Assembly: GCF_006125015.1 (NCBI RefSeq)
Contig: NZ_SZZN01000001.1
Span: 1,860,001 to 1,924,000 of the forward strand
Length of the DNA stretch: 64,000 nt
Direction: 5' to 3'
From: Roseovarius arcticus
Lineage (GTDB): Bacteria; Pseudomonadota; Alphaproteobacteria; Rhodobacterales; Rhodobacteraceae
This document shows, in pieces, positions 26,999 through 57,869 of this stretch (position 1 is the stretch's first letter; every line of letters begins with the position of its first letter). Position numbers and translations under genes: made by a program. Below the pieces are notes generated by a model. The model did not search any database and had not been told where the DNA came from. It saw only the letters and a program-made list of their open reading frames with translations.

Positions 26999-29512
26999 AT
27001 GGACATCATTCTAATCACAACGATCATCGCATCGCTCTTTCTGCTGATCGGCGCAGCCGAGCCGTTGGCCAGCCGTCTGCGCCTTCCTTATGCGGTGATT
27101 ATTGCGTGCCTCGGCATCCTCGTAGGTGTCGCTGCGACATTTTTCCTGCGCACCGAACTGACCGACGCGCTTAATCCGGTGGCGACGGCGATTCTGGCGT
27201 TGCCGATCAGATCCAATGTGTTTTTGTATGTCTTCCTCCCAACCCTCGTCTTTCAGGTCACGCTGGGATTGAACTTGCGGCGCATGGTCGACGACTGGGT
27301 GCCGATACTGGTGCTGGCAGTGGTTGCCGTTTTTGTCGCAACCTTTGTTGTTGGGTATGCGCTGGCGTTTGCAAGTGCGTTGACGCTATCGGCGGCGCTG
27401 CTTGTGGGGGCTATCGTTTCGACCACCGACCCTTCGGCTGTCGTAAGCATCTTTCGCTCGATCTCGGCTCCTCGCCGTCTGGCGAGGATCATCGAGGGCG
27501 AAAGCCTGCTGAACGATGCCGCTGCCATCGCGTTGGCCGCGCTCTTTATGGAGTATGTGAAGGCCGGCGTACCAGACCCGTCAGTCCAAGGCGCGCTGGC
27601 GCAATTCCCAATTTTGCTTGTCGGGGGCGTTGTGGTCGGCTGGATCGCGGCGCGGGTCGCGATCTGGGTCATGGCGCTGTTCGCGCGGTATGAGATGGCT
27701 GTGGTTTCGGTGTCGATTGCCCTGCCCTACCTTGCCTACATCATCGCCGAGCAGAGCGTGGGTGCATCCGGCGTCATCGCCGTCGTCGTCGCCGCGATGA
27801 CCCTACAGCTTGCCGGGTCAGGACAGTTGCCGCCAGCCACGTGGCAAAATCTGCGCGAGGTGTGGGATTTGCTGGCGCATTGGGCCGGAGCGCTGATCTT
27901 TATTCTTGCGGCTCTACTGATCCCTCGCATGCTTGAGACGGTGCAACTGCTAGATCTGGGCCTCATCATAGTGGTGGTGCTGGCTGCCATCGCCGCGCGG
28001 GCGATCATCCTCTATGGGCTACTGCCGCTTCTTACGTTGTTGCGCCTGTCGCCAATGGTCGAGAGGCCGTACCGCGTCGCAATTCTATGGGGCGGCCTGC
28101 GCGGGGCCGTCACGCTATCACTGGCATTGGCCGTGACTGAAAGCTCTCTCATACCGGCCGACGTAAAAAGACAGGTCGCGGTCCTCGCCACCGGATTCGT
28201 CCTGTTCACGCTACTGGTGCAAGGTACAACACTGCGCTGGGTGATCCGCTGGCTGGGATTGGACAAACTCTCGCCGCTCGACAATGCGCTTTACAATCAG
28301 GTGATTGCGGTCGCCCTACAGACTGTCCGGGAAGATCTGGCAAAGGTCACCGAAAACTATGAACTGACAAAGGAAACCGTACGTTCCGAGGCCAAAAGGT
28401 TCGGGGAGCGTCTGGAATTGGCGGTGAAATCTGCCGAGGTCGACACAGAAATACTGGATCGCGATCGCGTCACTCTGGGCCTGATTGCGTTGGCCAGCGC
28501 TGAGCGCGATACTATTCTCGCCCGTTTTCGCGACCGGACCATTTCGTCGACGCTGTCCGACCGGATGCTGTCTGGCGCGGACGCATTGATCGAAGGGGCG
28601 CGGTTTGGCGGGCGCACTGGTTATAAAAAAATGGCCAGCCGTAGCCTTGGGTTCAGCCCGTGGTTGCGGCCAGCGATCTTCCTGCACAATCGCCTGCGGT
28701 TCTCTATCCCACTGGCCCAGATCACCGCGACCCGGTTTGGCCTTCTCTTGGCGCAGCGGCTGATCCTGCGCGATTTGCACGGGTTCATTGACGGGCGCAT
28801 CCGGCGCATTCACGGACGCCGCGTGGCGGAGGTGCTGCACGAAATGCTGGACCGCCGCATTGAGCAGGTCAAACAGGCGCTCGACGGGCTACGCCTGCAG
28901 TATCCGGGCTATGCCGAAGAGATGGAGCGCCGTTTCATTCACCGGACCGCCCTGCGTCTGGAAGAGCGTGAGTATGACACACTGCTCGAAGACGGGTTGA
29001 TCGGCGAAGAGGTCCACAATGCACTTACCCTAGATGTGGCCTCGCGCCGCGACCGCGCCGAAGCGACCCCGTTGCTGGATCTGACATTGCAAAAAGCCGA
29101 ATTGGTGCGCCAGTTCCCGCTATTTTCGGACATGGACGAGGCTGTCCTAAACAGAATGGCGCGCGGCCTTGTCACCCGCTACGTCAATCCCGGTGAGCGT
29201 ATCCTGAATCGCGACGGTGTATCGCGTAACGTCTATTTCGTGGCCTCCGGCGCGGTCGAGCTGGACGTGGCGGGCCAAAGCTGGCGTTTGGGGCGCGGTG
29301 AAATGTTCGGACAGATGGGCGTGCTGATGCGAAACCCGCAACGCGCAGAGGTCCGCGCCATCGCGCCCTCAACGCTTCTTGTTCTGGATGAAGGTCGGTT
29401 TTTGCGCCTTCTGAAGCGAAGCAAGGTCGTTCAATCAGCGGTCCGCGAAAGCGCAGTCCGGCGCGGGATTCCGACCGAACAACTCATGGCGGATATCGAC
29501 GCCGCCAGCTGA
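26999..29512 (+). CDS. CPA1-type Na+/H+ antiporter with long cytosolic tail and cyclic-nucleotide-binding-like domain (SOS1-like)
   Basis: An 837-residue protein. Residues about 1-420 form a 12-13-helix CPA1 antiporter with STTDPSAVVSIF and GESLLNDAAAIALAAL, the paired Asp motifs (TDP, ND) that bind the cation in NhaP/NHE proteins. A charged tail follows (about 430-690), with a segment (YKKMASRSLGFSPWLRPAIF) before an amphipathic region. Residues about 695-815 form a cNMP-binding-like beta-roll (LVTRYVNPGERILNRDG, FGQMGVLMRNPQRAEV). The phosphate-binding cassette keeps Arg, but the usual FGE Glu is Gln, so nucleotide affinity is doubtful. The order resembles plant SOS1. It probably exports Na+ against protons. 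Confidence 0.85.
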   Translation: MDIILITTIIASLFLLIGAAEPLASRLRLPYAVIIACLGILVGVAATFFLRTELTDALNPVATAILALPIRSNVFLYVFLPTLVFQVTLGLNLRRMVDDWVPILVLAVVAVFVATFVVGYALAFASALTLSAALLVGAIVSTTDPSAVVSIFRSISAPRRLARIIEGESLLNDAAAIALAALFMEYVKAGVPDPSVQGALAQFPILLVGGVVVGWIAARVAIWVMALFARYEMAVVSVSIALPYLAYIIAEQSVGASGVIAVVVAAMTLQLAGSGQLPPATWQNLREVWDLLAHWAGALIFILAALLIPRMLETVQLLDLGLIIVVVLAAIAARAIILYGLLPLLTLLRLSPMVERPYRVAILWGGLRGAVTLSLALAVTESSLIPADVKRQVAVLATGFVLFTLLVQGTTLRWVIRWLGLDKLSPLDNALYNQVIAVALQTVREDLAKVTENYELTKETVRSEAKRFGERLELAVKSAEVDTEILDRDRVTLGLIALASAERDTILARFRDRTISSTLSDRMLSGADALIEGARFGGRTGYKKMASRSLGFSPWLRPAIFLHNRLRFSIPLAQITATRFGLLLAQRLILRDLHGFIDGRIRRIHGRRVAEVLHEMLDRRIEQVKQALDGLRLQYPGYAEEMERRFIHRTALRLEEREYDTLLEDGLIGEEVHNALTLDVASRRDRAEATPLLDLTLQKAELVRQFPLFSDMDEAVLNRMARGLVTRYVNPGERILNRDGVSRNVYFVASGAVELDVAGQSWRLGRGEMFGQMGVLMRNPQRAEVRAIAPSTLLVLDEGRFLRLLKRSKVVQSAVRESAVRRGIPTEQLMADIDAAS

Positions 29513-31160: not shown

Positions 31161-31581
31161 GGCAGTGGCACCCCTGTCGCCCGCTTGAAACATCCCGTGC
31201 CGCCTGGCCTCCCGCGCCTTCAGCCTCACTGTGACTCACTTACTGGCCGCCGCCCCAACCCGTAATGGTTGATCATTGGCAAACCCAGCATGTCCCGCTC
31301 TTACCAGCGGCAGCGAAAGGTATCCATGATGGACGCGCGCTGCGCACCTCAAAGGTCGGCAAAAGATCGCCAAAGGGCGGTCGGCGCACGAATTAAAGGC
31401 ATTTGGCAGTGGTTGGCGAGGCATCCACGCACCGCTCAAACCGGATGGTCGAGGCAGTTACCTGCCTCAGGTTTCAATAGGCGGGGCACCCCGCCAACCG
31501 GCGCAAAACATGAGCGAGATCAACGTCTGGCTGAATTAAATCACCCAGAATACGGCGGCACTTAAATCTAGGAGTAACGTG
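31161..31581. promoter_or_regulatory. Divergent intergenic region with two strong hairpins upstream of the FNR-type gene
   Basis: This 421-base gap holds no recognisable gene. Two perfect inverted repeats lie upstream of the regulator: GAGGCAG-TTAC-CTGCCTC (31451-31468) and GGCGGGG-CA-CCCCGCC (31480-31495). A weak FNR-like site, TTGATCATTGGCAA (31269-31282), is nearer the TPR gene; its second half is imperfect. The hairpins could attenuate or stabilise the fnr leader, or terminate readthrough, but no T-run follows either. Confidence 0.5.
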
Positions 31582-32376
31582 ATGACGGCATCAACGACCG
31601 ACTTTCGTGAGGCGAAGTTTTCATTCCGGGCTCCGGAGACAAAACTTGTGCCCAAATCCAGTCATGCGTTCCCCATTGATTGGTCAAAGAACACAAAGCT
31701 CAACGCACCAAGGACCAGCGGGCAACCTTCGGATACGGCCAAGTACCGTCGTCTATATGCCCTATTTAATGCTGGATCCTTCGAGCAGCATTTTCAACCA
31801 AACAGCACCATTGCACTACATGGCGAAGCGGCAGCCGCCGTCTACTTGATCGCGTCAGGCACGGTCCGCTGCTGCACTATTAGTGCCGGTGGGTGCCGTC
31901 AAATCTCTTGCTTTGCCAAAAAAGGCGGGTTTGTCGGGCTCTCTGAAATGGGAAACTGGCACTTAACCGCCGAGGCGGTCGACCACGTCATCGTTAAATC
32001 GATCCCTCGTGCGGCCCTCGAACATGCACTGACGGTCGACACTGAGTTGCGACAAGAGATTAGGATGTATGTTCTGGAACTCTTGGAATGTCGTGAAAAG
32101 CAGCTGCTGACCTTGATCAGCACAAAGGCGGCGGATCGCTTGTTTCAATTCCTCTGCGATTTTGCGGCTTCAAAGCAAAAAGCTGGCCATGTCGTATTGC
32201 CTATGTGCCGGCAGGATATTGCGGATCACCTTGGCCTGTCGACAGAGACCGTCAGCCGGGGGTTTACCGAACTTAAACGCGCGGGGCGCATCGACCTTGC
32301 CACCACCGAGAAATACAAGATCTGCAAGGTCGCCGGGATCGACGCCGAGGCTGCGTTAGGTATGCGCGTCATGTGA
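31582..32376 (+). CDS. Crp/Fnr-family regulator, FixK/FNR DNA-binding type, cysteine-rich
   Basis: A 264-residue Crp/Fnr protein. The sensory beta-roll occupies about 55-165, followed by a dimer helix, and the helix-turn-helix is MCRQDIADHLGLSTETVSRGFTELKRAG (about 205-232). The E-T-V-S-R recognition helix carries the Glu, Ser and Arg that read TTGAT half-sites in FNR. There is no N-terminal Fe-S Cys cluster as in FNR, but Cys97, Cys98, Cys105 and Cys110 are grouped in the beta-roll, and four more Cys follow. ATG 31582 is preceded by AGGAG at a good spacing. It probably controls the neighbouring arc-atp, gad, pha and usp promoters, which carry matching sites. Confidence 0.85.
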   Translation: MTASTTDFREAKFSFRAPETKLVPKSSHAFPIDWSKNTKLNAPRTSGQPSDTAKYRRLYALFNAGSFEQHFQPNSTIALHGEAAAAVYLIASGTVRCCTISAGGCRQISCFAKKGGFVGLSEMGNWHLTAEAVDHVIVKSIPRAALEHALTVDTELRQEIRMYVLELLECREKQLLTLISTKAADRLFQFLCDFAASKQKAGHVVLPMCRQDIADHLGLSTETVSRGFTELKRAGRIDLATTEKYKICKVAGIDAEAALGMRVM

Positions 32377-32510
32377 CGCCTCTTGCGATCACGCTGGGCG
32401 ATTTCGAGGCGCAATTTAACCGCCTGAAAGTGCGGATTGCCGCCAAGCATGCGGCGCATGGCGCCAGAGGCAAGGTATCGCAGATCATTTTGACGTATCG
32501 GCCGACTTGA
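32373..32510 (+). CDS. Possible small ORF (45 residues) after the FNR-type gene
   Basis: A GTG at 32373 overlaps the regulator's stop codon (ATGTGA), and the frame runs 45 codons, overlapping the convergent atpG 3' end by 26 bases. The peptide is basic (contains LGDFEAQFNRLKVRIAAKHAA and ends LTYRPT) and reads like protein rather than random sequence. I do not recognise it, and no ribosome site beyond coupling is evident. It may be a remnant of a longer gene. Confidence 0.25.
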   Translation: MTPLAITLGDFEAQFNRLKVRIAAKHAAHGARGKVSQIILTYRPT

Positions 32511-33420
32511 GATCTGCATCGCGCCCAGCGTGCGATGCAGGTCTCCTGTCTTTCTTCAGCGCCTCAAAGCCAGTGATGACATCGAGAAGTTCAGTGGTGA
32601 TTTCACTCTGGCGTAGGGCGCGCGTGTCCGATTGAAGCGTATCAAGCCTGTCGTCCACCGATTGCTCTGCCTGTTGCATCAGGGCAAGCCGTGCCGCATT
32701 TTCCGTAACCATCGCCTCAGCAGAGGCCCGGAACAGGCTTGCAAACAAATGCCCCCGGATCAGCGCCACAAAGAGATCGCTCGCACTCATGGAAAAGTAT
32801 GGCAGGCTCCGCGAGGACCACGGCCTTGACCGAAAATCTGCTATCAGTGCGGGATCCAGCGGCAGCAAAGGCACGATTTCAGGCGATTGGGTGTCGCCCT
32901 CTCGGCGCGCAAAATAGGCTAGTGAAACGGCGACTTCGCGGGGGGCATTGCCGCGCCTGATATCGTCCAGCTTCTGAGTAAGCAGATTTGCAAGCCGCCC
33001 GATCCCGTCAACAGACGCCGGCGGAAGGAACGTGCCCTCCACACCATGGCCCAGATCGGCCAACGCATCTACCATCTGCGCCCCGACGCACAAAATGGTC
33101 GTGGCGGTGCTATCGCCGATGTGATGCCTGACATGCGCCGCCAGCGCCACGTTGTAGTTTCCGCACAGGCCGTGGTCCGAGCCGAATACCACGATTACCT
33201 GTGCAGCACTGCGCGGTGCCGCAGCACTGATAGGCCCCGATTGCGAAATGAATGCATGAAGACCCTCCAGCACCGTGCCATAATAGGCCTCAATAGCGCG
33301 GGCCGCATGTTCATAGGGCGCGGAATTTATGACAGACAACGTCTTCATCGTGTGAACTACGCTTCGGATGCCCTGCATACTGGTCGTCCGCCGTGCCAGC
33401 GCCTCAAGGGTTTGTGCCAT
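32485..33420 (-). CDS. atpG: N-type ATPase gamma subunit
   Basis: A 311-residue F-type gamma-like central shaft protein. The N-terminal coiled coil contains [30 protein letters not shown], and the C-terminal helix [37 protein letters not shown] is typical of gamma, with the E-I-T-x-E-L-L-D motif. The Rossmann-like middle domain includes [19 protein letters not shown] 33420 gives the standard gamma start, overlapping the atpA 3' end by 17 bases; the longer frame above it is inside atpA. It is the last gene of the arc-atp operon, as in other N-ATPase operons (atpDCQRBEFAG). Confidence 0.92.
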
Positions 33421-34942
33421 TTTGGACCCCCAATGCCGTACGCGCCTTTTGGCCAAGCGCGGCCATGCGGGTGCGCGTTTCATCGCCAAACGGCTCGTTT
33501 TGCGCGATCTGCTCGGCCAAATCGACCAGATCGCTTGCGGCGGCTTTTCTAATATCCGCCATGACTGCAAAGGTGTCTGCCTCACTCAATCCGTCGAGTT
33601 GGCCGTCCATCGCCGCGATCAGAACGGATAGCTGTTCAATGGCCGGTATTGGATCACGCTCTGCCTGCCGCAGTGACGCACGCACAGCCGCCCCCCGGGT
33701 GAGCCTTGCGCGGGTTGCATCATCCAGCCGTGTGCCGAAACGGGCAAAATCCTCCAACTCTTCGAATTGCGATAGCGTCACGCGCAGATTGCCCGCCACT
33801 GAGCGAAAGGCCGGGCTTTGCGCCTTGCCGCCTACGCGGCTGACCGACACCCCCAGATCAACCGCCGGAAACTGGTTTTTGCGCACGAGGCGCGGTGACA
33901 GGTAGATCTGCCCGTCGGTGATCGAAATGAGGTTCGTGGGGATATAGGCCGAAAGGTTTTCGGCTTGCGTCTCGACCACCGGCAGGACCGTGATCGACCC
34001 GCCGCCCGCGGCCTCGGTAAATTGCCCGGCGCGTTCCAGTAATCTGGCATGGATGTAGAATATATCGCCGGGAAATGCCTCGCGCCCGGGCGGGCGGCGC
34101 AGCAGCAGCGACAATTCGCGGTAGGAGCGGGCGTGATGCGTCAAGTCGTCCAAAACCACCAAGACATCGCGGCCCTTATCCGCAAAATACTCGGCCATGG
34201 TCAGCGCGGCATAGGGCGCGACATAGGCCAGCCCTGCGGCATCCTCGTCGCCAGCGGACATGATGATCGTGCGCTCCATCATGCCGCCGTCGCGGACCGC
34301 GCCGATCACCTTGGCGACCGCATCGCCGCGCTGACCGATTGCGCAATAGATACAGATCAGATCGGTGTTTTTCTGATTAAGGATCGCGTCCACCGCCAAT
34401 GACGTCTTGCCGGTTTGCCTGTCGCCGATCAGCAACTCCCGCTGCCCTAGCCCGACCGGCACTGCCGCGTCCACCGCCTTGACCCCTGTCGCCAGGGGGC
34501 GCGAGATGGCTTTGCGATCCAGAATTTTGGGCGCCTCCGCCTCAACTGGGTGGAGCGCTTCGGCCTCGATGGGGCCGTTGCCATCCCGTGGGTTGCCAAG
34601 CGCATCAACAACGCGGCCCAAAAGTGCCGGACCAACTTTGGCGCTGACGACCTTGTGGGTGCGCATGACGCTTTCGCCGACGGTGATATGATCGGTCGGG
34701 CCAAGCAGCACAACTCCCAGACGTCCGGGCTCCAAATCTAGGATGATCCCCTGCACGCCGCTCTCAAAGTGGAGCAGCTCGTCCGACAAGGCGCGCTCCA
34801 AACCGGTCACGATGGCGATGCCGTCTGCCACCTCGGCAACTTGCCCGATTTCGCTGAGACGCGGCGTCGGGGCGGGAATGCTTAGAAGGGCCTCCAACAG
34901 TCCCTCCGGCGTGGCGCTAATCTTGCTCGTTTCAATGCTCAT
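33404..34942 (-). CDS. atpA: N-type ATPase alpha subunit
   Basis: A 512-residue F1 alpha-type subunit. The P-loop is [11 protein letters not shown] in the middle, with [29 protein letters not shown] and SISRVGG-like contact segments ([13 protein letters not shown]) as in alpha subunits. It binds nucleotide non-catalytically in the hexamer with beta. The gene overlaps atpF by four bases and atpG by 17. The housekeeping F1Fo alpha gene must lie elsewhere, since this copy is in an N-type gene order. Confidence 0.93.
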
Positions 34943-35700
34943 GAGCGCGCTTTCGGGTCGGTGCCCATGGCCAGATTTTCGGAAATCAACGTATCAAGAC
35001 CGTCGATGTAGGACGCTACAGTCCATTCCGCCTGCGCGCCGCCCATGCGCAGCACAAGGCCGGGCGCTTGCTCTGTATCTGTCTCGAAACGCAGCGACAC
35101 GTCGGGGAACTGTGCCTTCAACTCAGATGTCAGGCTTTTTTGCGCCGCTGGCGGCAGTGGCTCATGGCTGGTGATGACGGCCGCCGCCGCCTGCCCTGCA
35201 GCGCGCTTCAGATCTGCGGCCATCGGCTTGATTTGACGGATCAAATGATGCGCCATACGCGCCTCCAGCGTGTCATCCGCAAGGTCGGTCAGCGCTTTGC
35301 GGGTTAGCGACAACAGCGCGGCCGCACCGGCACTTTGCATCTTGGCGGTGTACTTTTTGGCCTCATCGTCCAGATGGGTCTGCCAGGCCTTGTGCTCCTG
35401 CTCCATCCGATCGCGCGCATCTGCCAGCAACAGATCGCGCTCTGCCTCGGCCTTTTTCCTTATCGTTTCCGTCATCTCGGCCTCTGCTGCCTGCAGGGAC
35501 CGCACTTTGCCGCGATACTCAGCTTCAGTCGCGGCAGCCGCGGCCTTGGCTTGCCCCGCTTCTTGCATCCGGGCGGCAATCCCCGCTTCGCGGGCGTCGA
35601 TGCCATCCAAAATGGGGCGGTAGAGAAACCGCTTCAACAGCCAGACCAGAACCATAAAGTTGGCAATCTGGGCGGCGACGGTGATCCAGTCGATGGACAT
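34939..35700 (-). CDS. atpF: N-type ATPase b subunit, long form with delta-like C-terminus
   Basis: A 253-residue peripheral-stalk protein. An N-terminal membrane helix ([20 protein letters not shown]) leads into a long Ala/Glu/Arg coiled coil (about 30-150). The C-terminal about 90 residues resemble an F-type delta/OSCP domain: [51 protein letters not shown]. This would explain why the operon has no separate delta gene, a known feature of N-ATPases. Usual b subunits are about 160 residues. The gene lies 3 bases after atpE and overlaps atpA by four bases. Confidence 0.85.
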
Positions 35701-35703
35701 GGG

Positions 35704-35991
35704 TCAGCCAGCCGCCGCTTGGGCCGCTGCCACCGCCGCATTCCAGAATGGGTTTGCAAAGATTAGGATCATGGCCACAACAAAGCAATAGATCGCCGTG
35801 GATTCGATCATGGCGAGGCTGACAAACAGGGTGCGCGAAATGGTCGAGGCTGCGTCAGGCTGCTGCGCAATCGCGCTGAGCGCGGTTGAGGCTGCGCGCC
35901 CTTCGCCAAGCGCCGGGCCAATGGCGCCGAACGCGACGGTCAGGCCTGATGTGAAGATCGAGATGGCGGCGATGATGGCAAGTTCTGTCAT
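35704..35991 (-). CDS. atpE: N-type ATPase c (rotor ring) subunit
   Basis: A 95-residue two-helix rotor subunit. Helix 1 carries GPALGEGRAASTALSAIAQQP, with Glu30 at the position occupied by Gln in Na+-type F-ATPase c subunits. Helix 2 carries MIESTAIYCFVVAMILIFANPFW, where Glu63-Ser64-Thr65 and Tyr68 match the Na+-coordinating E-S-T/Y pattern. It therefore has two carboxylates per subunit near the ion site. The N-ATPase family has been described as Na+-pumping, while a Burkholderia pseudomallei N-type ring was reported, to my memory, as proton-specific; the sequence here does not settle which ion is used. It overlaps atpB by four bases. Confidence 0.93.
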   Translation of the reverse strand: MTELAIIAAISIFTSGLTVAFGAIGPALGEGRAASTALSAIAQQPDAASTISRTLFVSLAMIESTAIYCFVVAMILIFANPFWNAAVAAAQAAAG

Positions 35992-36683
35992 GGCGTGTCC
36001 TTTGTGGTCAGTGAGGGGGCTGGCGTAGCGGTCGCGCTAGAGATGTAGACCGCAGCCAAAATTGCGAAGATGTAGGCTTGGATCATGCCGGTCAGCAGGC
36101 CGAGAACATCCATCACCACGGGAAAGAAGAAGGGCGCGACGCTGAGCAAGATTGCCGCGATCACGGCCCCGCTCATGATATTTCCATAAAGCCTGATGGC
36201 GAGGGAAATGCCGCGAGAGAACTCTGAGATGATATTGAAGGGCAGCATGATGAACGACGGCTCAAGATAAGTTTTGAGGTAGCCCCCCAACCCCCTGCTG
36301 CTGACGCCGAATATGGGCACCGCGATCAAGACCGAAATCGCAAGCGCCGTCGTGGTCGACAACGAGGATGTCGGCGGCTGAAATCCGGGGACAACCAGCA
36401 GAAGGTTCGACACGGCCACAAACAAAAAGAGCGTGCCTGCGTAGTACAACAAGTACCGCGACGGCCCTTGCGCGACCTCCTCAATCTGGCTCTGGATGCC
36501 CTGTACGATCACCTCTAGCATCGTTCGCCACCTGTTCGGCGGCACGTCCGGGCGCAGGTTGCGCGTGATCAGAATCGAACAGATGGTCAGTAGCGCCATC
36601 ACGATCCAAGTATAAAATATGGTCGCGTTCAGCGAGTGCCCCCAGATGTCGAGGATGGTGGTCTGATCAGGCGACAGGTTCAT
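35988..36683 (-). CDS. atpB: N-type ATPase a (stator channel) subunit
   Basis: A 231-residue membrane protein with about five to six helices. The conserved channel segment is ISEFSRGISLAIRLYGNIMSGAVIAAILLS, whose Arg (in LAIRLYGN) is the essential stator arginine, and the last helices read MIQAYIFAILAAVYISSA. ATG 36683 overlaps the atpR stop (ATGA); an upstream extension lies within atpR and is not supported. It forms the ion half-channels against the c ring. Confidence 0.92.
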   Translation of the reverse strand: MNLSPDQTTILDIWGHSLNATIFYTWIVMALLTICSILITRNLRPDVPPNRWRTMLEVIVQGIQSQIEEVAQGPSRYLLYYAGTLFLFVAVSNLLLVVPGFQPPTSSLSTTTALAISVLIAVPIFGVSSRGLGGYLKTYLEPSFIMLPFNIISEFSRGISLAIRLYGNIMSGAVIAAILLSVAPFFFPVVMDVLGLLTGMIQAYIFAILAAVYISSATATPAPSLTTKDTP

Positions 36684-36979
36684 GACGCGCCTCCGGCTGT
36701 TACGCCGATCCGGGCAAACGTCGTGGCGACAACGCGCGCGAATATGAACGCCGCCCCATAGCCCAAAGCGGCCCAAGGCCCGCCCTGCCCGGCGATGATC
36801 CACCCACCCCCCAGCAACGCGGAAATTCGCAGGGCGGCGCTGATCGACAATAGTTTAACGGGGCTTGCGCTGCGCAGGGCGTGCCGCACTCCGATAGCCA
36901 GCCCTGCAAAAAAACAGGCGCCCATGACGAGACCCGCAGCGACGCCCAGCATTACGGCATTCCAATCGACGGTTATCAT
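36680..36979 (-). CDS. atpR: N-type ATPase accessory membrane protein AtpR
   Basis: A 99-residue protein with three hydrophobic segments (VMLGVAAGLVMGACFFAGLAIGV; LLSISAALRISALLGGGWII; AALGYGAAFIFARVVATTF). Conserved Arg residues lie near helix ends, as in N-ATPase AtpR. AtpQ and AtpR are specific to N-type operons and are thought to help assemble the rotor ring or bind its ions. ATG 36979 overlaps atpQ by four bases. The longer frame up to 37063 would lie within atpQ. Confidence 0.85.
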   Translation of the reverse strand: MITVDWNAVMLGVAAGLVMGACFFAGLAIGVRHALRSASPVKLLSISAALRISALLGGGWIIAGQGGPWAALGYGAAFIFARVVATTFARIGVTAGGAS

Positions 36980-37259
36980 TTGTCGCCTCCTTCCTTGTTC
37001 ATCCATGCAGCGGCCAGAAACGCGCCCAGAACGACGCCGCCCAGGATCAGGGCGATCGTCCACGAAAATGCCTGAGGCGCCACTCGGTCCAGCCAGAGAC
37101 CCAGAAACGCGCCGCCAACTGTCGGCACAGCGACGGACCAGCCGATCATTCCGAACGTGCCGATACCGCGCAGCGGGCTTGGCCCTGGATTATCGCGCGA
37201 TGATTTCATTCGCTTGGCTCGGCGGGCGATCTCTTCGGTGGATTTGTCGGGCTTGGGCG

Positions 37260-37263
<4 letters not shown>
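36976..37263 (-). CDS. atpQ: N-type ATPase accessory protein AtpQ (AtpI/AtpZ-like)
   Basis: A 95-residue protein with a charged N-terminus (STEEIARRAKRMKSS) and two membrane helices (GTFGMIGWSVAVPTVGGAFLGLWLD; FSWTIALILGGVVLGAFLAAAW) separated by a short Asp-containing turn. This is the AtpI/AtpZ-like fold found in F-ATPase operons, and the N-type operon version is called AtpQ. It probably assists c-ring assembly or Mg2+/Ca2+ entry, by analogy only. It overlaps atpC and atpR by four bases each. Confidence 0.85.
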
Positions 37264-39981
<2,718 letters not shown>

Positions 39982-39982
39982 G

Positions 39983-40984
39983 TCAGGCCCCCAAAGTGGC
40001 GACGAGAACCGCCTTGATCGTGTGCATCCGGTTTTCAGCCTGATCGAACACGATGGACGCGGCACTCTCGAACACCTCTTCTGTCACTTCCATCGCGTCC
40101 AGCCCGAACTCTTCTTTGATCTGCGCGCCCACGGTCGTCTCGGTGTTGTGGAAGGCAGGTAGGCAATGCATGAAGCAGGCGCGCGGATTGCCGGTCTTTT
40201 TCATGACCTCAGCAGTCACCTGATAGGGTTTCAGGAGCTCGATGCGCTCGCCCCATTTCTCCTTGGGCTCGCCCATCGAAACCCAGACATCAGTGTAGAC
40301 GAAATCGACGTCCTTGACCGCCGCATCAACGTCCTCGGTAATGGTCACGCGCGCGCCGGTCTGCGCGGCAATTTCCTTGGCCTCCTCTATGATCTCAGAG
40401 TTCGGCCAGCAGGCCTTGGGGGCGCAGAGGCGGACATCCATCCCCATCTTGGCACCGCCGATCAGCAGGCTATCGCCCATATTGTTGCCCGCATCCCCGA
40501 GAAACGCATAGGCCACGCGGTGCAGCGGTTTTTCCACATGCTCCTGCATGGTCAGAAAATCGGCGAGGATCTGGGTCGGATGAAACTCGTTCGTAAGTCC
40601 GTTATAAACTGGCACACCAGAGTATTTCGCCAGTTGCTCCACAACATCTTGGCCAAAGCCGCGATACTCGATCGCGTCATAAATACGGCCCAGAACGCGC
40701 GCTGTATCCTTGACCGACTCCTTATGCCCGATATGCGATCCGGTTGGTCCCAGATAGGTGACGCGCGCACCTTGATCATATGCCGCGACCTCAAACCCCA
40801 CACGGGTGCGCGTGCTGTCTTTTTCAAAGATCAGCGCGATGTCCTTGCCTTGCAGCTTCGGCATTTCGGTGCCGGTGTATTTCGCGACCTTTAGATCGGC
40901 AGCCAGCTTCAGCAGGAATGCAATCTCACGGGGGGCGAAATCACGCAGGGTCAGAAAATGTCGGTTCTTCAGATTATAAGCCAT
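39983..40984 (-). CDS. arcB: Ornithine carbamoyltransferase, catabolic
   Basis: A 333-residue OTCase. The carbamoyl-phosphate motif STRTR is at 57-61, followed by [13 protein letters not shown], the HPTQ motif in [15 protein letters not shown], and the ornithine-binding HCLP motif in [10 protein letters not shown]. In the arginine deiminase pathway it phosphorolyses citrulline to ornithine and carbamoyl phosphate. Its length and its position between arcA and arcC fit the catabolic ArcB class, while anabolic ArgF is usually about 310 residues and sits with argD. Start 40984 is 18 bases after arcA. Confidence 0.93.
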
Positions 40985-41002
40985 TGGTGTCGCCTTTCGG
41001 GG

Positions 41003-42235
41003 TCAAACAGGATCGCGCATAGTGGGGCAGCTCATGCAGTGGCCGCCGCCGCGGCCGCGGCCCAGTTCGGCGCCTGGGATCGCCAGCACTTCGATACCTG
41101 CCGCCTTTAGTGCGGCGTTGGTGTCATCATTGCGGTCGTAGCCGATAACCACACCGGGCCTGAGGGCCAGCACGTTGTTGCCATCATTCCACTGCTCGCG
41201 TGCGCGCTCTTCGACGGTATCGCCGCCGGTGGGCACGATCTGGAGGCTCTTGTAGCCCAGCACCTCAGCCACGATGTCAAAGATCGGGCGAGGATCCTGG
41301 CGAAATTGCAGGGGGGCGGGCCCGTCACCGGGGCGGATGTCATAGCAAACCAACTCGTCCGCAACCTCCTTAAAGGTCGTGACCACATCGCCGCCGCACA
41401 AGGTAAACACGGTGTCCAAGTGCATCGCGGCCCGTGATTTTGGAATGGCGAAGGCCAGCACCCGGTGCGCCGTGCCCGACTCGAACAGCGCTTCGGCCAG
41501 TTGTCCAATGCCTTGCGGCGACGACCGCTCGCCCATGCCGACCAGCACCGTGCCGTTACCGACGGGCATGATGTCGCCGCCCTCAACCGTGGCCAGCCCA
41601 TGACCGGTTGTCGGATCGCCCCAGTGGATCGTCGTCTTACCGGCGAATTTCGGATGAAACTTGTAGATCGCGGTGTTCAGTAGGGTTTCGGGCCGGCGGG
41701 CGGGCCAGTGCATCGGATTGACCGATACCCCGCCAAAGATCCACGCTGAATTGTCCCGCGTGAAAAGCGCGTTGGGCAGTGGCGGCAGGATGAAACCATG
41801 ATCACCGAGGTAGCTGCCAAAGAGGCCGGACGGCTTGAACGGCAGATCGTTCGTGGCCAGCCCGCCCAGCAGGTATTCGGCAAGTTTGACGCCGGGCAGC
41901 TCGTCCATCCAGCCGCGCAGCTCTGACATCATGCCCACGCCAATCTGGTCGGGCGTAACCAAGTGGTCCAGCACCCAATCGCGGCCTTTGGCACGGTCCA
42001 GCGTCTCCGCCAAGAGGTCGTTCACGTCCAGAACCTCGACACCTTGACCCCGCATCGTGGCGGCAAAGACATCGTGATCCTTTTGCGCCTGCTTGACCCA
42101 GAAAACGTCGTCGAACAGCAGCTCTTGGCAGTTTGCCGGCGTCAGGCGGCGGTGCGCCAGACCGGGGCGGCACACGATCACCTGCCGCAGGGTGCCAGTC
42201 TCGGAATGGACGCCAAGGGTTTGAGTGTGTTCCAT
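41003..42235 (-). CDS. arcA: Arginine deiminase
   Basis: Hydrolyses arginine to citrulline and ammonia. The 410-residue pentein-fold enzyme has [42 protein letters not shown] and the C-terminal nucleophile Cys400 in [17 protein letters not shown]. The H-x-E pair is expected around [18 protein letters not shown]. Start and length are normal for ADI. It follows the arcD gene by 27 bases. Ammonia production can neutralise acid, and the pathway yields one ATP per arginine. Confidence 0.95.
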
Positions 42236-42262
42236 GGTAGCTGTTCCTTGAATTTATCTAAG

Positions 42263-43732
42263 TTAGAGAGCGCTGATCGCGCCGGTCCACATCAGGTAAG
42301 CCGCCACAACAGCAGCCCCGACCAGACCAACGGCAATCAGAATTTCAATGCTGGTGAATGTGCGTTCGCGGTGCGACGTACGCGCCCAGATGTAGAATGG
42401 AATACCCACCGCATAGAGGATGGCGCACATCAGCAGGTACGCAGGACCAGCAGCATAGACGAGCCAAGCGCCATAGACGGTTGCCAGCGCGCCAATAGCC
42501 ATGTCGCCACCGCGACGATCGCCCGGGCCATAGCTTTCGCCGCTCAGCGCCAGCTTGAGCGCGTAGGCACCGGAGAAGACATACGGCACAAGGATCGCTG
42601 TCGATGCAATGTAGAAAAGCGCGAGATAGGTCGAGTTTGCGTAGAGCGTCACAATCAAAACGACCTGCACGCAGATGTTGGTAATCCAGAGCGCGCCTGA
42701 CGGCGATCCGTTGTCATTTTCCGCTGCAAAGAACGCTGGCAACATCCCCTCTTTGGCGGCGCGGTAGGGGATTTCTGCGGCGAGGAGCGTCCAGCTTAGA
42801 AACGCCCCGGCAACAGAGATGACCAGCCCGATCCGAACCAGAACCGACCCCCACGGCCCGACCACGGATTCCAGAACATTCGCCATTGAGGCGGCGGCGG
42901 GCAATCCAGCCAATTCGGGCTGCGACATGACACCCAGCGAGAGCAGCGACACGAGCAGATAGAGCAACAAGACAGAGAGGAAACCAAAGATGGTGGCCTT
43001 GCCGATATCGCTACGCTTGGCGGCGCGGGCAGATCCGACGCTTGCCCCTTCGATACCGATAAAGACCCAAAGCGTGACCAGCATCGTGCTTTGAACCTGG
43101 GTCGTGATGCTGCCCAGCGTTAGCGACTCTGTGCCCCAGAAATCCAACTGGAACGTCGGCATGTTAAAGGCCACGAAAACCAGCACGACGAATAAAAAGA
43201 TCGGCCCTAGCTTTGCAATCGTTGTGATCAGATTGACGATAGCCGCCTGACGCACCCCCATCAGGACAAGCGCGTGAACCAGCCAGACGCAGATTGAGGC
43301 GCCTACGATCGCCTGCCACGTGTTCCCCTCGTCACCGAAAGGTGCATAGAAATAGCTCAGCGCGCCAAAGATCAGGACCGCATATGAAACGTTGCCAATC
43401 CAAGCGCTGAGCCAATAGCCCCAAGCACTGTTGAACCCGACGAAATTGCCGAACCCCGCGCGCGCGTAGGAATATGGCCCTGCATCGAGCGCGGGTTTGC
43501 GGGTCGACAGGTTCTTGTAAACGAACGCAAGGGCCAGCATCCCAACGCCGGTGATCAACCAACCGATGGTAATCGCGCCGGCCGACGCACCGCGTGCCAT
43601 GTTCTGCGGCAGGCTGAATACGCCGCCGCCGATCATCGATCCGACGACCAGCGCCGTGAGGGACAACAGCCCCAACTTGCCGGGTGCCGCGGCGCCCGTT
43701 TGAGTGTCGGATGCGGATGTGTCTGTTGGCAT
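42263..43732 (-). CDS. arcD: Arginine/ornithine antiporter (APC superfamily)
   Basis: A 489-residue APC transporter with about 12-13 helices. The first helix carries LTALVVGSMIGGGVFSLPQNMA, the substrate-binding G-S/A-G unwound motif, followed by the conserved PYSYARAGFGNFVGFNSAWGYWLSAWIGN. It should exchange external arginine for internal ornithine at no direct energy cost. ATG 43732, with AAGGGGAAT just upstream, is preferred over a longer frame to 43828. It is the first gene of the arc-atp operon. An FNR-type palindrome lies about 140 bases upstream. Confidence 0.9.
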   Translation of the reverse strand: MPTDTSASDTQTGAAAPGKLGLLSLTALVVGSMIGGGVFSLPQNMARGASAGAITIGWLITGVGMLALAFVYKNLSTRKPALDAGPYSYARAGFGNFVGFNSAWGYWLSAWIGNVSYAVLIFGALSYFYAPFGDEGNTWQAIVGASICVWLVHALVLMGVRQAAIVNLITTIAKLGPIFLFVVLVFVAFNMPTFQLDFWGTESLTLGSITTQVQSTMLVTLWVFIGIEGASVGSARAAKRSDIGKATIFGFLSVLLLYLLVSLLSLGVMSQPELAGLPAAASMANVLESVVGPWGSVLVRIGLVISVAGAFLSWTLLAAEIPYRAAKEGMLPAFFAAENDNGSPSGALWITNICVQVVLIVTLYANSTYLALFYIASTAILVPYVFSGAYALKLALSGESYGPGDRRGGDMAIGALATVYGAWLVYAAGPAYLLMCAILYAVGIPFYIWARTSHRERTFTSIEILIAVGLVGAAVVAAYLMWTGAISAL

Positions 43733-43870: not shown

Positions 43871-43884
43871 TTGACGATCGTCAA
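43871..43884 (-). promoter_or_regulatory. FNR/FixK-type site upstream of the arcD-arcABC-atp operon
   Basis: TTGACGATCGTCAA is a perfect 14-base palindrome in the 238-base gap between arcD and the upstream exchanger gene. For leftward transcription, a -41.5 class II position predicts initiation near 43836, and TTGTAT (complement of 43841-43846) is a reasonable -10. Confidence 0.7.
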
Positions 43885-43970
43885 TCACCGAACCAGCGCG
43901 CGCATTTCAGCATGTAAGGGGGCAGAAATGCGCGGGCCGGATGGGTCCAGTCGGCAGAACACCGGCCTAG

Positions 43971-45869
43971 TCACGATAAAATCATCGAGAAGTAGCCACC
44001 GATCAGTGCCAAGACAGTCGTCAGAGCATAGCTTACGGGATAAGGCACAGCGGCGACGGAACTACGGGATTCCTCCATGATGGCGTTCAGTCCCGGTGTG
44101 CTGTTGCGCGCACCTGTCGCCGCGCCGTCCGAAATGATCGAGTTGAGGCCAAATATTTTGATCCCTACCCAAAACGCTATGAATGGCGGCAAAAGAGCGC
44201 CCACTATCCCGATCAACGCCAACCACAAGATCGTGTCGCCGCCCAAGGCCGAGATCACCTTTGGCCCCACATTCGCCGACAAGACCGCCACAAAGGCGTT
44301 CAGGCCAAAGTCCTGAAGGAAACTGCGCGCGCCCTCATGCACGGGGCCGCCAAATTCGGGATTGCGGCTGCGGAAATAGCTGACGCAGATGCCGGCAAGG
44401 ATGCACCCTGCCGATGTCCCCAGCGCGAATGGAATGCCCGAGATGGTCACCGTCGCGATCCCGACCAGATAGCCCACGAGCATCGCCAGCGAGAGATACA
44501 GAAGCTCGGACTTCATCGTCGGTAGTACGGCATGGCCGCCCAACCGCTTTGCAGTCACTTTGAGCGCGGCATCAGGGCCCGTCAGGCGCAGGACGTCGCC
44601 AAATCGCACTTCGCTTTTAGGCCCAAGGGGCAATTCGCTGCCCGCGCGAAAGAGCGCCTGCACCTCAACTCCGACAGCGCCGAAGCTGGCCAGATCCTCC
44701 AGCGCTTTCCCCGAGACGGCGTGCGAGCCGATATGTACGTCGGCAACTTCCATCGGGATGTTGCGCGCCAGTGGGGCATCTGATTCGGGGCCGATCAGTT
44801 CGCCCTCTTTAAGGATCAGATCATGCACATTCGCGCGAACGGTCACGATGTCGCCCGCGGCAAGCGTGGGATCGCTGGCGAGGTCCATGACCGCGCCGTC
44901 CCGCACCACGCGTAGGATCGGCACTGCTGGGAAATCGTTAGCCAACTGTGACAGGCTGCGCCCCACAAAACTGTCATGCGTGACGGCAAACGCGCGCAGA
45001 TCGTAGGGAGAGAACCCCATCGTCAGCGCGCCGGGTGCGCCCGGAACAGGGTGCGTGGCACCGCCGCTGAACTCGGCCTCGGCCAGTTTCGCGTCGGCGA
45101 CAGCGTCACGGCCAAAGATGCGCGGCAGGTACCGGATCAACAAGATGATCCCGACGGTCGACAGAACATAGCTGATGGCATAGGCCGCCGCCATATTCGC
45201 GCCGACCTCTTCGACGGTCATGCCCGCTGGGGGCACATACGCGCCGCTGGCCATTGCGCCCTGCCCTACACCCAGTATTGCGGTGATCGTGTAGCTGCCG
45301 GAAATCAGCCCTGTGGCATAGCCCGGCGCGAGGCCGACCAGCTTGGCCCCAAAGTAGCAGATGACCCAGTTCAGAACCCAGACGACCAGTCCGATCACGA
45401 CAAAGGCCAGACCGCCCTTGCGCAAGCCGGAAAAGAACTGCGGCCCCACCTTTAGCCCGAGGGCATACATAAAAAGGAGCAGCATGAACGACGATAGGAT
45501 GCCGGGAATCGAATAGGTGATGCCATAAGCCGCCTCAGCGATCATCGAGAACACGACACCGACCAGCAGTGTGCCGGCCGTGGACCCCAGCGAAACGCCC
45601 TTCAGGCTGAATCTGCCAATTAGCGTACCCAGTGCCAGCGCGAGCAAGATGAACGCTATCGGTTGGTTCCCAAGAAGCTGAAAGAAGCCGTGCGCGCCGG
45701 CCTCCGTGATCGGCTCGATCCGGCCGAATATCTGCCCGACCACGCCTTCGGCCGTGGCGGGCGCATCCGCTTGGGCCAACGCGGGTCCGGTAGCGAACAC
45801 CATTGGTATGATAGCTGCGCGCGACACTGATTTGGCGGTGGCCCGGCATCGGGCGCGCGGTCTATCCAT
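43971..45869 (-). CDS. AspT/AAEx-family exchanger with two RCK-C-like domains, GAD-linked
   Basis: A 632-residue transporter of the aspartate:alanine exchanger family. Two hydrophobic halves of about five to six helices each (PIAFILLALALGTLIGRFSL to about residue 260; LLYLSLAMLVGYLVGIATVT to the end) flank a cytosolic middle (about 270-470) with two TrkA-C/RCK-C-like domains (FAVTHDSFVGRSLSQLAND; PMEVADVHIGSHAVSGKALEDL). ATG 45869 overlaps the gadB stop by eight bases. An N-terminal segment (AIIPMVFATGPALAQA) looks like a cleavable signal peptide. Coupling to gadB suggests glutamate/GABA exchange; AspT itself exchanges aspartate and alanine. Confidence 0.85.
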   Translation of the reverse strand: MDRPRARCRATAKSVSRAAIIPMVFATGPALAQADAPATAEGVVGQIFGRIEPITEAGAHGFFQLLGNQPIAFILLALALGTLIGRFSLKGVSLGSTAGTLLVGVVFSMIAEAAYGITYSIPGILSSFMLLLFMYALGLKVGPQFFSGLRKGGLAFVVIGLVVWVLNWVICYFGAKLVGLAPGYATGLISGSYTITAILGVGQGAMASGAYVPPAGMTVEEVGANMAAAYAISYVLSTVGIILLIRYLPRIFGRDAVADAKLAEAEFSGGATHPVPGAPGALTMGFSPYDLRAFAVTHDSFVGRSLSQLANDFPAVPILRVVRDGAVMDLASDPTLAAGDIVTVRANVHDLILKEGELIGPESDAPLARNIPMEVADVHIGSHAVSGKALEDLASFGAVGVEVQALFRAGSELPLGPKSEVRFGDVLRLTGPDAALKVTAKRLGGHAVLPTMKSELLYLSLAMLVGYLVGIATVTISGIPFALGTSAGCILAGICVSYFRSRNPEFGGPVHEGARSFLQDFGLNAFVAVLSANVGPKVISALGGDTILWLALIGIVGALLPPFIAFWVGIKIFGLNSIISDGAATGARNSTPGLNAIMEESRSSVAAVPYPVSYALTTVLALIGGYFSMILS

Positions 45870-47244
45870 GATGGAAACTGGGTGTCGCCGTCGAATTTGG
45901 GACTGGGTTTTTTGACAGGTGATCAATCGCGCGCTCAATATCATCGAGCAGAAGACGCGCAAGATCGCGGCTGACCCCGTGGCGGATCAGGATGCGCTGA
46001 ACGACCGTTTCCTGGCGATTTGATGGAAGGGGGTAGGACGCGATTTGCCATCCGCGCATCCGCACCCTCTCTGACAGATCATAAAGGGTGTATCCGTGAT
46101 CTGCGTCCGTCAGCTTGTAGGCGACTGCCGGTAGACCGCCATGGCCATCATAGACCATCTCGAACGGGCCGATCTTGGCCAGTTCTGCGCCCAGCCACTG
46201 CGCCGTGTCCGAACACGCCTGCTGAATGGCCGTGTATCCCTCGCGGCCCAGCCGAAGGAAATTGTAGTACTGCGCGATGATCTCGCCGCCGGGCCGCGAG
46301 AAATTAAGCGCGAAGGTGGGCATGTTGCCGCCCAGATAGTCGACGTAAAATATTAGATCTTCGGGCAAATCTTCTTTTGACGCCCAGATTACCCAGCCTA
46401 CGCCTAATGGCGCCAACCCGTATTTATGGCCGGATGCGTTAATCGACCGCACTCGCTCAATCTGAAAGTCCCAGACCAGATCTCGCTGGATAAAGGGCGC
46501 GATGAACCCGCCCGACGCCGCATCAACGTGGATCGGGATATCAAGCCCTAGATCGCGTTCCATCGCGTCCAATTCGCGTGCCAGCGCTTCGACCGGCTCG
46601 TAAATACCGGTAAATGTGACGCCCAACGTGGCAACCACACCGATGGTGTTCTCATCGCAGTATTTCCGCAGATCGGCCGGTTGTAGCCCGAGGGCATCAC
46701 CCTCCAGCGGAACTTCGCGGATCTCAACATCAAAGTAGCGGGCAAATTTCTTCCAGCAAATCTGTACGGGTCCGGTGACGATGTTTGGCTTGCTGGTATC
46801 CTTGCCCTCTGCTTCGCGGCGATTGCGCCATTTCCATTTGAAGGCCAACCCGCCCAACATGGCCGCTTCGCTTGATCCGGTTGTCGAACAGCCAACCGTC
46901 TCCCACGCTTTTTGAGCGTGCCAAAGATCGGCTATGATATGGACGCAGCGGTTTTCGATTTCGGCAGTCTGTGGGTATTCGTCCTTGTCGATCATGTTCT
47001 TGTCAACGGCGTCAGTCATCAACTGCTTTGCTTCGTCCTCAACCCAAGTTGTGCAAAAAGTGGCGAGGTTTTGCCGCGAATTGCCATCAAGCAAAAGCTC
47101 GTCCCGGACGAGGCTGTACGCCGCGTGAGGTTCGGACGAATTGTTTGGAAGGCGGTATTTCGGCAACGCGTGTTCCGACGCATTCGTCGCGTAGATGTCT
47201 TGAAAGGTCGAGTCGTCGTCTGCATTCACATAGTGGATGGGCAT
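45862..47244 (-). CDS. gadB: Glutamate decarboxylase
   Basis: A 460-residue PLP decarboxylase that turns glutamate into GABA and CO2 and consumes a cytosolic proton. It has TGSSEAAMLGGLAFKWKWR, the HVDAASGGFIAPF Asp-PLP motif, and the Schiff-base Lys274 in NASGHKYGLAPLGVGW, at nearly the same position as in E. coli GadB. The N-terminal region (YRLPNNSSEPHAAYSLVRDELLLDG) is also typical. It has GAAGGAA just upstream. The C-terminal residues include HHG. The acid-resistance partner GadC is not present; the exchanger gene next to it is of another family. Confidence 0.95.
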   Translation of the reverse strand: MPIHYVNADDDSTFQDIYATNASEHALPKYRLPNNSSEPHAAYSLVRDELLLDGNSRQNLATFCTTWVEDEAKQLMTDAVDKNMIDKDEYPQTAEIENRCVHIIADLWHAQKAWETVGCSTTGSSEAAMLGGLAFKWKWRNRREAEGKDTSKPNIVTGPVQICWKKFARYFDVEIREVPLEGDALGLQPADLRKYCDENTIGVVATLGVTFTGIYEPVEALARELDAMERDLGLDIPIHVDAASGGFIAPFIQRDLVWDFQIERVRSINASGHKYGLAPLGVGWVIWASKEDLPEDLIFYVDYLGGNMPTFALNFSRPGGEIIAQYYNFLRLGREGYTAIQQACSDTAQWLGAELAKIGPFEMVYDGHGGLPAVAYKLTDADHGYTLYDLSERVRMRGWQIASYPLPSNRQETVVQRILIRHGVSRDLARLLLDDIERAIDHLSKNPVPNSTATPSFHHG

Positions 47245-47496
47245 GTCGGTATTCCTTCGCGTCCTGTATTAAAGATGGCTCAAGATCGCATTCTTGGGGT
47301 ATCAGCGACGCCGCGCTATCTGACAGACTTGAAGACAGGCTTGGCTGGCGGGCGCCGCCTTCACGCGTCATTTCAGGGTTCTCTCGCTCTCAACACGGTC
47401 CTCTTCTTGGCCGGAATTAGAAAAGCTAGTGACACCGCGCTGCTGAAACTGTTGCAGTATGTGGGCCAGACCTTAGTGATGCGGCGCGCTGTGAAA

Positions 47497-47510
47497 TTGA
47501 TTGTCGTCAA
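47497..47510 (-). promoter_or_regulatory. FNR/FixK-type site upstream of gadB
   Basis: TTGATTGTCGTCAA (TTGAT-N4-GTCAA) lies 253-266 bases upstream of gadB in the 290-base gap after the ABC permease gene. A class II start would be near 47462, leaving a leader of about 220 bases that holds no gene I can support. Confidence 0.5.
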
Positions 47511-47534
47511 TTGGCAATCGGGTGGTTCTGGATT

Positions 47535-48662: not shown

Positions 48663-48663
48663 T

Positions 48664-52376: not shown

Positions 52377-52472
52377 GATCCGTATCCAATCCATTGGGCC
52401 AACAAGGAACTGAACGCGGCTTACGTCGCTCACTCCGTCTTGGTGGTTTTAGGAAGCGGGCCCGCCCGGCGA

Positions 52473-52486
52473 TTGACGCAGGTCAA
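52473..52486. promoter_or_regulatory. FNR/FixK-type site in the phaC/yhiI divergent promoter
   Basis: TTGACGCAGGTCAA (perfect TTGAC/GTCAA half-sites) is centred at 52479.5. For phaC a -41.5 position predicts initiation near 52521, and a TATATATT stretch at 52504-52511 supplies the -10, 30-47 bases before the phaC ATG. It could also serve the leftward yhiI operon, where no clear -10 is visible. Confidence 0.75.
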
Positions 52487-52550
52487 TTGTCGCGATCAAT
52501 GCCTATATATTGAACTGATAAGATTTCATCATTGGCAAAGGGTTCAGGCC

Positions 52551-54383: not shown

Positions 54384-54388
54384 TCGGG

Positions 54389-55159: not shown

Positions 55160-55228
55160 TACTGCGCACGCCGCCCTGACCCGCCGCGAACCCGACGCCA
55201 GACCCACCGCAAAGCAAGGCAATCATAC

Positions 55229-57816: not shown

Positions 57817-57855
57817 GACACGCTTGCCCGAATCGTGCAAATCTGCGCCTGTTAA

Positions 57856-57869
57856 TTGATGCACATCAA
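57856..57869 (+). promoter_or_regulatory. FNR consensus site upstream of the usp gene
   Basis: TTGATGCACATCAA is a perfect match to the FNR consensus (TTGAT-N4-ATCAA). Its centre at 57862.5 predicts initiation near 57904, and TACCAT (57892-57897) sits where a class II -10 belongs, 56-69 bases before the usp ATG. Confidence 0.8.

Follow-up and report, generated by a model that had tools for sequence, protein, structure and literature searches.

Why should a pathway that gives one ATP per arginine without respiration run straight into the genes of an extra rotary ATPase? The question is raised by a locus of Roseovarius arcticus, in a window of 64,000 nucleotides (contig NZ_SZZN01000001.1, positions 1,860,001 to 1,924,000) whose numbering we use unless a contig or locus is named. 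Here the arginine deiminase (ADI) genes arcD-arcA-arcB-arcC and the N-type ATPase (N-ATPase) genes atpD-C-Q-R-B-E-F-A-G form a single minus-strand run of 13 genes from 43732 to 32485, with zero internal stops. We hold with moderate confidence that these genes are one anoxia-induced unit, in which ATP made by the ADI pathway would be hydrolysed by the N-ATPase to export an ion, most likely Na+. Salt tolerance, acid survival, and restoration of the Na+ gradient have each been proposed as the role of N-ATPases, and a recurrent operon tying the enzyme to one ATP source under an oxygen-responsive box makes the question of that role directly testable. If the reading is true, marine bacteria that otherwise respire could get through anoxia on arginine.

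The initial annotation described a leftward, operon-like run of 13 genes with gaps of 27 bases or less, and both the coordinates and the family matches bear this out. The arcD and arcA genes are separated by 27 bases, arcA and arcB by 18, and arcB and arcC by 1, while the arcC stop and the atpD start share an ATGA (a 4-base overlap). Junctions within the atp genes are mostly 4-base overlaps, as had also been claimed (D/C, C/Q, Q/R, R/B, B/E, and F/A), the exceptions being a gap of 3 bases at E/F and an overlap of 17 at A/G when atpG begins at ATG 33420, its most likely start. A profile search placed all 13 products in the expected families, and ArcA, alpha, beta, and subunit a have their active-site motifs in place. 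The ADI set is complete by profile matches, with ArcA, ArcB, ArcC, and an arginine/ornithine exchanger; ArcA scored 467.8 bits against TIGR01078, under the cut-off of 489.1, and above that of a second model (Table 1). A promoter and terminator scan performed no better than on shuffled sequence, and a sigma-70 scan of the minus strand from arcD to atpD gave no site, an uninformative result given fewer sites overall (3) than in shuffles (4.7). We infer that arcC and atpD share one transcript from their overlap, from the position of an upstream box, and from arc relics in relatives, both described below.

Several features identify the ATPase as N-type. The gene order, beta-epsilon-Q-R-a-c-b-alpha-gamma, is that of N-ATPases, none of the nine atp genes encodes a delta subunit, and the b subunit (253 amino acids) matches TIGR03321 over profile positions 1-243, below the cut-off of that model. 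AtpR is held to be distinctive of N-ATPases and was recognised here through PF12966. Against the curated NCBIfam cut-offs for alternate F1F0 enzymes, epsilon, c, and Q pass, beta and a fall just short, and b, alpha, gamma, and R fall clearly short. The N-type model gives the best score for beta, alpha, a, b, and gamma, with the plain F0F1 model slightly ahead for epsilon and c; for atpD, the N-type beta model reaches 744.7 bits vs 611.4 for the F-type TIGR01039. A second beta gene lies elsewhere in the 4.22-Mb genome, at C1:2460671-2462038, where the match scores 572 bits; we take a weaker match at a distance of 1.2 kb as its alpha, and the N-ATPase appears to be present beside a canonical F-type enzyme in the same genome.

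The adjacency recurs in relatives, a point on which the initial annotation had made its reading depend. A scan of GTDB species genomes with subunit a gave 80 named loci, the best 80 of 388 relatives, and in 36 of them arcC precedes atpD on the same strand at a distance of at most 3.5 kb; close kin of the R. arcticus N-ATPase dominate the 80, and the fraction is no unbiased rate. Sixteen of the 36 arcC-atpD junctions overlap (13 by four bases, with overlaps of 8 or 1 resting on start-codon guesses), 14 have gaps of 2-60 bases, and six have an intervening gene for a short-chain dehydrogenase (SDR). The hosts include many Rhodobacterales, the Rhizobiales IMCC20636, Martelella, Cohaesibacter, a metagenome-assembled genome (MAG) of Kiloniellaceae, and Marinobacter. 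In the 35 linked loci whose head is in view, the unit begins with an ArcE-like transporter gene of the YfcC family (25 loci), with arcD (nine), or with arcA (one). The predicted-conjugative plasmid pRA02 of Roseicitreum antarcticum (L141) carries a YfcC-family gene, arcA, arcB, arcC, an HdeD-family acid-resistance gene (L141 12165-12725), and then the nine atp genes. Other arrangements also occur, with complete arc clusters divergent from N-atp in L116-L118 (with a stop in the arcC match of L116) and downstream of it in L119-L121, two groups that belong to separate N-ATPase clades; in G689/L122, the downstream cluster is broken, with no arcA match, partial arcE and arcB, and a stop in arcC. 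Two smaller observations concern these junctions. At L074 5410-7635, arcA and arcC precede atpD with no match to arcB or a transporter, possibly a decaying copy, and an SDR gene directly before atpD occurs both with arc upstream (L058, L084, L095, L103, L104, L106) and without it (L094, L107, L112).

Upstream of arcD lies an exact match to TTGAYNNNNRTCAA, a motif of the FNR/FixK type, and we regard this box at 43871-43884 as a candidate anaerobic promoter element of the operon. The window holds four such exact boxes vs 0.23 expected, one each ahead of arcD, of gadB, and of a universal stress gene lying downstream of pta-ackA, and one between hlyD and phaC, which are divergent; genome-wide there are 39, vs 9 for a reversed control. 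The clustering of four boxes in 14 kb has a p of 9e-6 for that stretch and of 0.009 for any such stretch, the cluster having been chosen after being seen. Among the named loci, 38 of 79 have a strict box at most 450 bases from the first gene (L053 being excluded at a contig edge), namely 19 of the 35 arc-linked loci and 19 of the 44 without arc, where 0.012 are expected per locus, and the arc blocks before atpD contain one strict box in 131 kb. Because boxes sit at the first gene in linked and arc-less loci alike and are so rare within the arc block, a strict FNR-type box appears to mark the first gene of the unit, arcD or arcE, or atpD where arc is absent.

Arc relics tell of the same promoter. 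Roseovarius sp. A-2 (L040) has a boxed promoter and an arcE start homologous to those of its sister R. lutimaris (L046), with only arcE fragments left before atpD, and eroded arc pieces are also found in Tateyamaria pelophila (L036), an Octadecabacter MAG (L037), and Phaeobacter sp. CECT 5382 (L077). The fragments in these four arc-less loci end 25-37 bases before an intact atpD, and in the latter three the atp genes are stop-free and a box lies upstream. We take these loci as natural arc losses in which N-atp was apparently kept under the former arc promoter; together with the box at the head, they argue for one shared promoter. As for the regulator, the R. arcticus genome encodes FnrL, above the family cut-off, and both elements expected of an FNR-type regulon are present, a TTGAY-N4-RTCAA box ahead of the genes and a genome-encoded regulator of the FNR type, with binding itself predicted. 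A FixK-like Crp/Fnr protein encoded next to atpG has ETVSR in its recognition helix and no cysteine before residue 98, and its kin follow atpG in eight arc-linked and one arc-less named loci.

Chance adjacency was rejected as an explanation on recurrence in relatives, proximity in a sample from the order, and co-divergence of ArcA and AtpD. The order sample of 196 genomes has N-type b in 38, ArcC in 40, and both in 18 vs 7.8 expected (p 2e-5, uncorrected for kinship), and in 11 of those 18 the two lie at most 10 kb apart (own genome included, coordinates judged by eye). Some of these genomes seem identical to named loci (G500 to L110, G558 to L065), and the two counts are not additive. In a phylum sample of 397 genomes, N-type b was found in 23 after 13 rows with a stop inside the b match, taken as F-type b plus delta, had been dropped; ArcC is present in seven of the 23 vs 3.5 expected (uncorrected for kinship). 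Distances in ArcA and AtpD correlate at 0.89 over 34 linked loci (AtpD vs AtpA, 0.85; again uncorrected for kinship), and the two proteins co-diverge. Mapped onto the beta tree, the linked state shows 22 changes, vs a mean of 32 (least 26) over 200 label shuffles, so the linkage is inherited yet has repeatedly been gained or lost. The trees are quick trees, one with 36 weak forks; they leave out L108 (short) and L085, merge two rows with identical beta, and, for the linked state, remove L128, which is not a true beta.

The pumped ion can be predicted from subunit c, which in R. arcticus carries Glu30 in helix 1 and Glu63-Ser64-Thr65-Ala-Ile-Tyr68 in helix 2. These side chains match the ligands of the Na+ ring of Fusobacterium nucleatum, namely Glu32, Glu65, Ser66, Thr67, and Tyr70 (PMC3692424). 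The motif of Na+-specific c-rings, Gln or Glu in helix 1 with E-S-T-x-x-Y in helix 2, is present, as a motif and a predicted specificity. All 80 named loci have the E-S-T-x-x-Y site, and a differing ion site between arc-linked and arc-less N-ATPases was ruled out on that count. Among a further 20 fetched stretches, 14 have E-S-T, L119-L121 (arc downstream) have E-T-T, and L133-L135 (arc-less) have E-T-M. The H+-coupled N-ATPase ring of Burkholderia pseudomallei has Thr62-Met63 at that position, an E-T-M site unlike the E-S-T-x-x-Y of R. arcticus (PMC5376962). The residues make Na+ the likelier ion, and this remains a prediction because an earlier Na+ prediction for B. pseudomallei failed.

The site also bears on whether the locus might instead be an acid-resistance unit, in which ADI ammonia, glutamate decarboxylase, and an H+-pumping N-ATPase jointly raise cytoplasmic pH. 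A gadB gene and an AspT-family antiporter gene lie directly upstream, the Roseicitreum plasmid has its HdeD-family gene between arcC and atpD, and the B. pseudomallei enzyme is H+-coupled and has been proposed to aid acid survival (PMC5376962). Against this, aspT is near in two of the 80 named loci and gadB in one (the view in arc-linked loci reaches only some 3 kb upstream of the transporter gene), and the boxes point to oxygen, not pH. Pure acid resistance was kept as a rival and lowered because of the c-site found in all 80 loci, and we consider it unlikely.

Returning to the anoxia-induced pump, we envisage that on a drop in oxygen either FnrL or the FixK-like neighbour, as an activator of the FNR family, would act at the box before arcD and turn on the run. 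ArcD would exchange external arginine for ornithine, and ArcA, ArcB, and ArcC would convert arginine to ornithine, CO2, and ammonia with the formation of one ATP. This ATP would be hydrolysed by the N-ATPase, translated from the same mRNA, to pump ions outward, most likely Na+, and ion export would keep the membrane energised while respiration is off. We infer this physiological role and the direction of hydrolysis from directly observed gene content and arrangement, and published work offers some parallels. N-ATPases have already been presumed to be ATP-driven pumps in ProAD, where 1807 N-type enzymes are predicted to use H+ (893) or Na+ (914) (PMC11738941). In Dinoroseobacter shibae, FnrL and DnrD mediate repression of the F-type atp genes (PMC5398030), and the N-type operon of Pelobacter carbinolicus is up during 2,3-butanediol fermentation (authors' unpublished array, PMC3543383).

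Several findings weigh against this reading. The Pelobacter operon is not up during acetoin fermentation (PMC3543383), and the B. pseudomallei N-ATPase, with its Thr62-Met63, was predicted to use Na+ and measured to use H+ (PMC5376962). Strict boxes are absent upstream in 12 Marinobacter loci, two Lysobacter loci, and five of the six arcC-SDR-atpD loci. The association in the phylum sample reaches a p of 0.04 only, and five of its seven genomes with both genes are linked, one of these being the broken G689/L122. A query from arcA to atpC was at least 80% covered in one of 513 matching plasmid records, that of the Roseicitreum plasmid. Arc clusters without atp neighbours are common, and two further ones in the R. 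arcticus genome have no atp genes in the stretches fetched. Finally, no arc gene precedes atpD in 44 of the 80 named loci (L085 being tallied as arc-less although its contig begins downstream of atpD, so that it cannot tell), and in the relic loci the N-ATPase has outlasted arc. Because of these last two points, the ADI pathway is not required, and with so many relatives lacking arc, arginine is not an obligate fuel of the N-ATPase. The arginine-powered ion pump of the initial annotation is supported in part, as an operon-like unit, conserved in relatives, in which a pathway that yields energy is linked to an additional rotary ATPase.

The persistence of the N-ATPase without arc, and the clustering of other genes with FNR boxes in the same island, would also suit a looser arrangement, in which one promoter serves two anaerobic functions, each useful by itself, and ATP from the ADI pathway is not specially directed to the pump. 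We think this improbable, as the pairing recurs in several arrangements and N-ATPase lineages, and the linked state changes less often on the beta tree than in shuffles, part of which shared anaerobic regulation could explain. A high ratio of ions to ATP thermodynamically favours synthesis at low ion-motive force, and N-ATPases share the architecture of F-type enzymes. That the anoxic N-ATPase runs forward, with ATP from a weak ion gradient supplementing ADI ATP, is nonetheless very doubtful, even with the 5.7 ions per ATP of the 17-member B. pseudomallei ring (PMC5376962), since a substrate-level ATP source should pair better with a consumer than with a second producer.

Read more broadly, and tentatively, the hydrolysing, ion-exporting role might hold for the N-ATPases of these Proteobacteria as a class, which would use fermentative ATP under anoxia to build an ion gradient, mostly of Na+, with arc-N-atp as fuel and pump in one mobile, FNR-controlled cassette. 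Acetate kinase near N-atp would, under such a class reading, be a looser form of the pairing. It is found near N-atp in 14 of the 80 named loci (11 of 44 arc-less and 3 of 36 arc-linked, with no background computed), the view before the first gene being longer in arc-less loci (median 7.6 kb, vs 4.4 kb before the first arc gene), and as a general N-ATPase partner it is suggestive only.

Both halves of the locus are of known kinds. In streptococcal acid tolerance, the ADI pathway is believed to supply ATP to a rotary ATPase that pumps ions, as proposed here; unlike in R. arcticus, the ADI and ATPase genes are not neighbours, and the enzyme involved is the H+-coupled F-type ATPase of the cell. 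The N-type ATPase operon was reportedly first defined by Dibrova et al. in 2010. The atpDCQRBEFAG operons of B. pseudomallei (PMC5376962), Pelobacter (PMC3543383), and Futiania (PMC9927469) resemble that of R. arcticus in gene order, AtpR, a long b without delta, a two-carboxylate c, and presence beside an F-type enzyme, and differ from it in that R. arcticus has arc genes joined, behind an FNR-type box. ADI operons with ArcD or ArcE have been catalogued as 124 clusters in 1281 species and likewise combine a transporter with ArcA, ArcB, and ArcC (PMC5300872), and Streptococcus suis has an FNR-like activator of arc (PMC5039431); unlike in these, a whole rotary ATPase continues the same run in R. 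arcticus. A term search of the text of PMC5300872 found neither "ATPase" nor "ATP synthase". In the open-licence literature searched, no paper had "N-ATPase" or "alternate F1F0 ATPase" co-occurring with "arginine deiminase", and none on the pairing was among the top-ranked results there, in line with the initial annotation, which knew of no description; Dibrova et al. or subscription papers may mention it. What appears to be new is the recurrent unit with its probable shared promoter.

Table 1. Genes and sites of the arc-N-atp locus and related features of R. arcticus (bit scores with model cut-offs).
Feature	Coordinates	Strand	Remarks
FixK-like Crp/Fnr regulator	31579..32376	+	convergent with atpG; NF050806 107.2 bits, below cut-off 300
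atpG, gamma	32485..33420	-	311 aa from ATG 33420; TIGR03323 212.1, below cut-off 282.35; TIGR01146 73.7
atpA, alpha	33404..34942	-	512 aa; TIGR03324 640, below cut-off 750.5; NF009884 639.1, cut-off 554
atpF, long N-type b	34939..35700	-	253 aa; TIGR03321 190, below cut-off 224.7
atpE, subunit c	35704..35991	-	95 aa; two-carboxylate site E30 and E63-S-T-A-I-Y68; TIGR03322 144.8, cut-off 130.85
atpB, subunit a	35988..36683	-	231 aa; conserved Arg in SLAIRLYGN; TIGR03306 296.1, narrowly below cut-off 302.1
atpR	36680..36979	-	99 aa; PF12966 34.3, cut-off 26; TIGR03165 39, below cut-off 55.5
atpQ	36976..37263	-	95 aa; TIGR02230 74.4, cut-off 46.7
atpC, N-ATPase epsilon	37260..37670	-	136 aa; TIGR03166 113, cut-off 100.1
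atpD, N-ATPase beta	37667..39061	-	464 aa; Walker A and GERSREA motif; TIGR03305 744.7, narrowly below cut-off 752
arcC, carbamate kinase	39058..39981	-	307 aa; GTG start (39981); TIGR00746 368.8, cut-off 358.25
arcB, ornithine carbamoyltransferase	39983..40984	-	333 aa; NF002470 553.6, cut-off 545
arcA, arginine deiminase	41003..42235	-	410 aa; active-site motif present; NF002381 548.3, cut-off 414
arcD, arginine:ornithine antiporter	42263..43732	-	489 aa; TIGR03810 601, cut-off 591
FNR/FixK-type box TTGACGATCGTCAA	43871..43884		exact match to TTGAYNNNNRTCAA; 138 bases before arcD start codon
AspT-family antiporter	43971..45902	-	between gadB and operon; TIGR03802 350.3, below cut-off 546.95; TIGR01625 129.4, cut-off 71.95
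gadB, glutamate decarboxylase	45862..47244	-	TIGR01788 632.7, cut-off 380.4; FNR box upstream, 47497-47510
Further arc cluster (L139)	C2:1-1906		same genome; start of 119-kb contig
Further arc cluster (L140)	C1:2565283-2569900		same genome

The surroundings of the operon make the description "self-contained", used in the initial annotation, too strong, since glutamate decarboxylase, an AspT-family antiporter, and pta-ackA lie nearby, with FNR boxes of their own. The stretch 43871-57869 looks like an anaerobic or stress island, comprising gadB-aspT, arc-N-atp, an RbbA-like ABC exporter with HlyD, phaC-fabI-pta-ackA, and the universal stress gene. Its phosphate acetyltransferase (55229-56626) has a MaoC-like dehydratase domain at the N terminus (PF01575 plus PF01515). 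Genes related to that of the ABC permease (47535-48662, in the region 47535-52433) occur in the fetched stretch of 11 of the 80 named loci, directly upstream of arc-N-atp or atpD in eight of them. Beyond the other end of the operon, 26999-29512 encodes a protein like the CPA1-type Na+/H+ antiporters, with a weak match to a cyclic-nucleotide domain in its C-terminal part, which could interconvert Na+ and H+ gradients.

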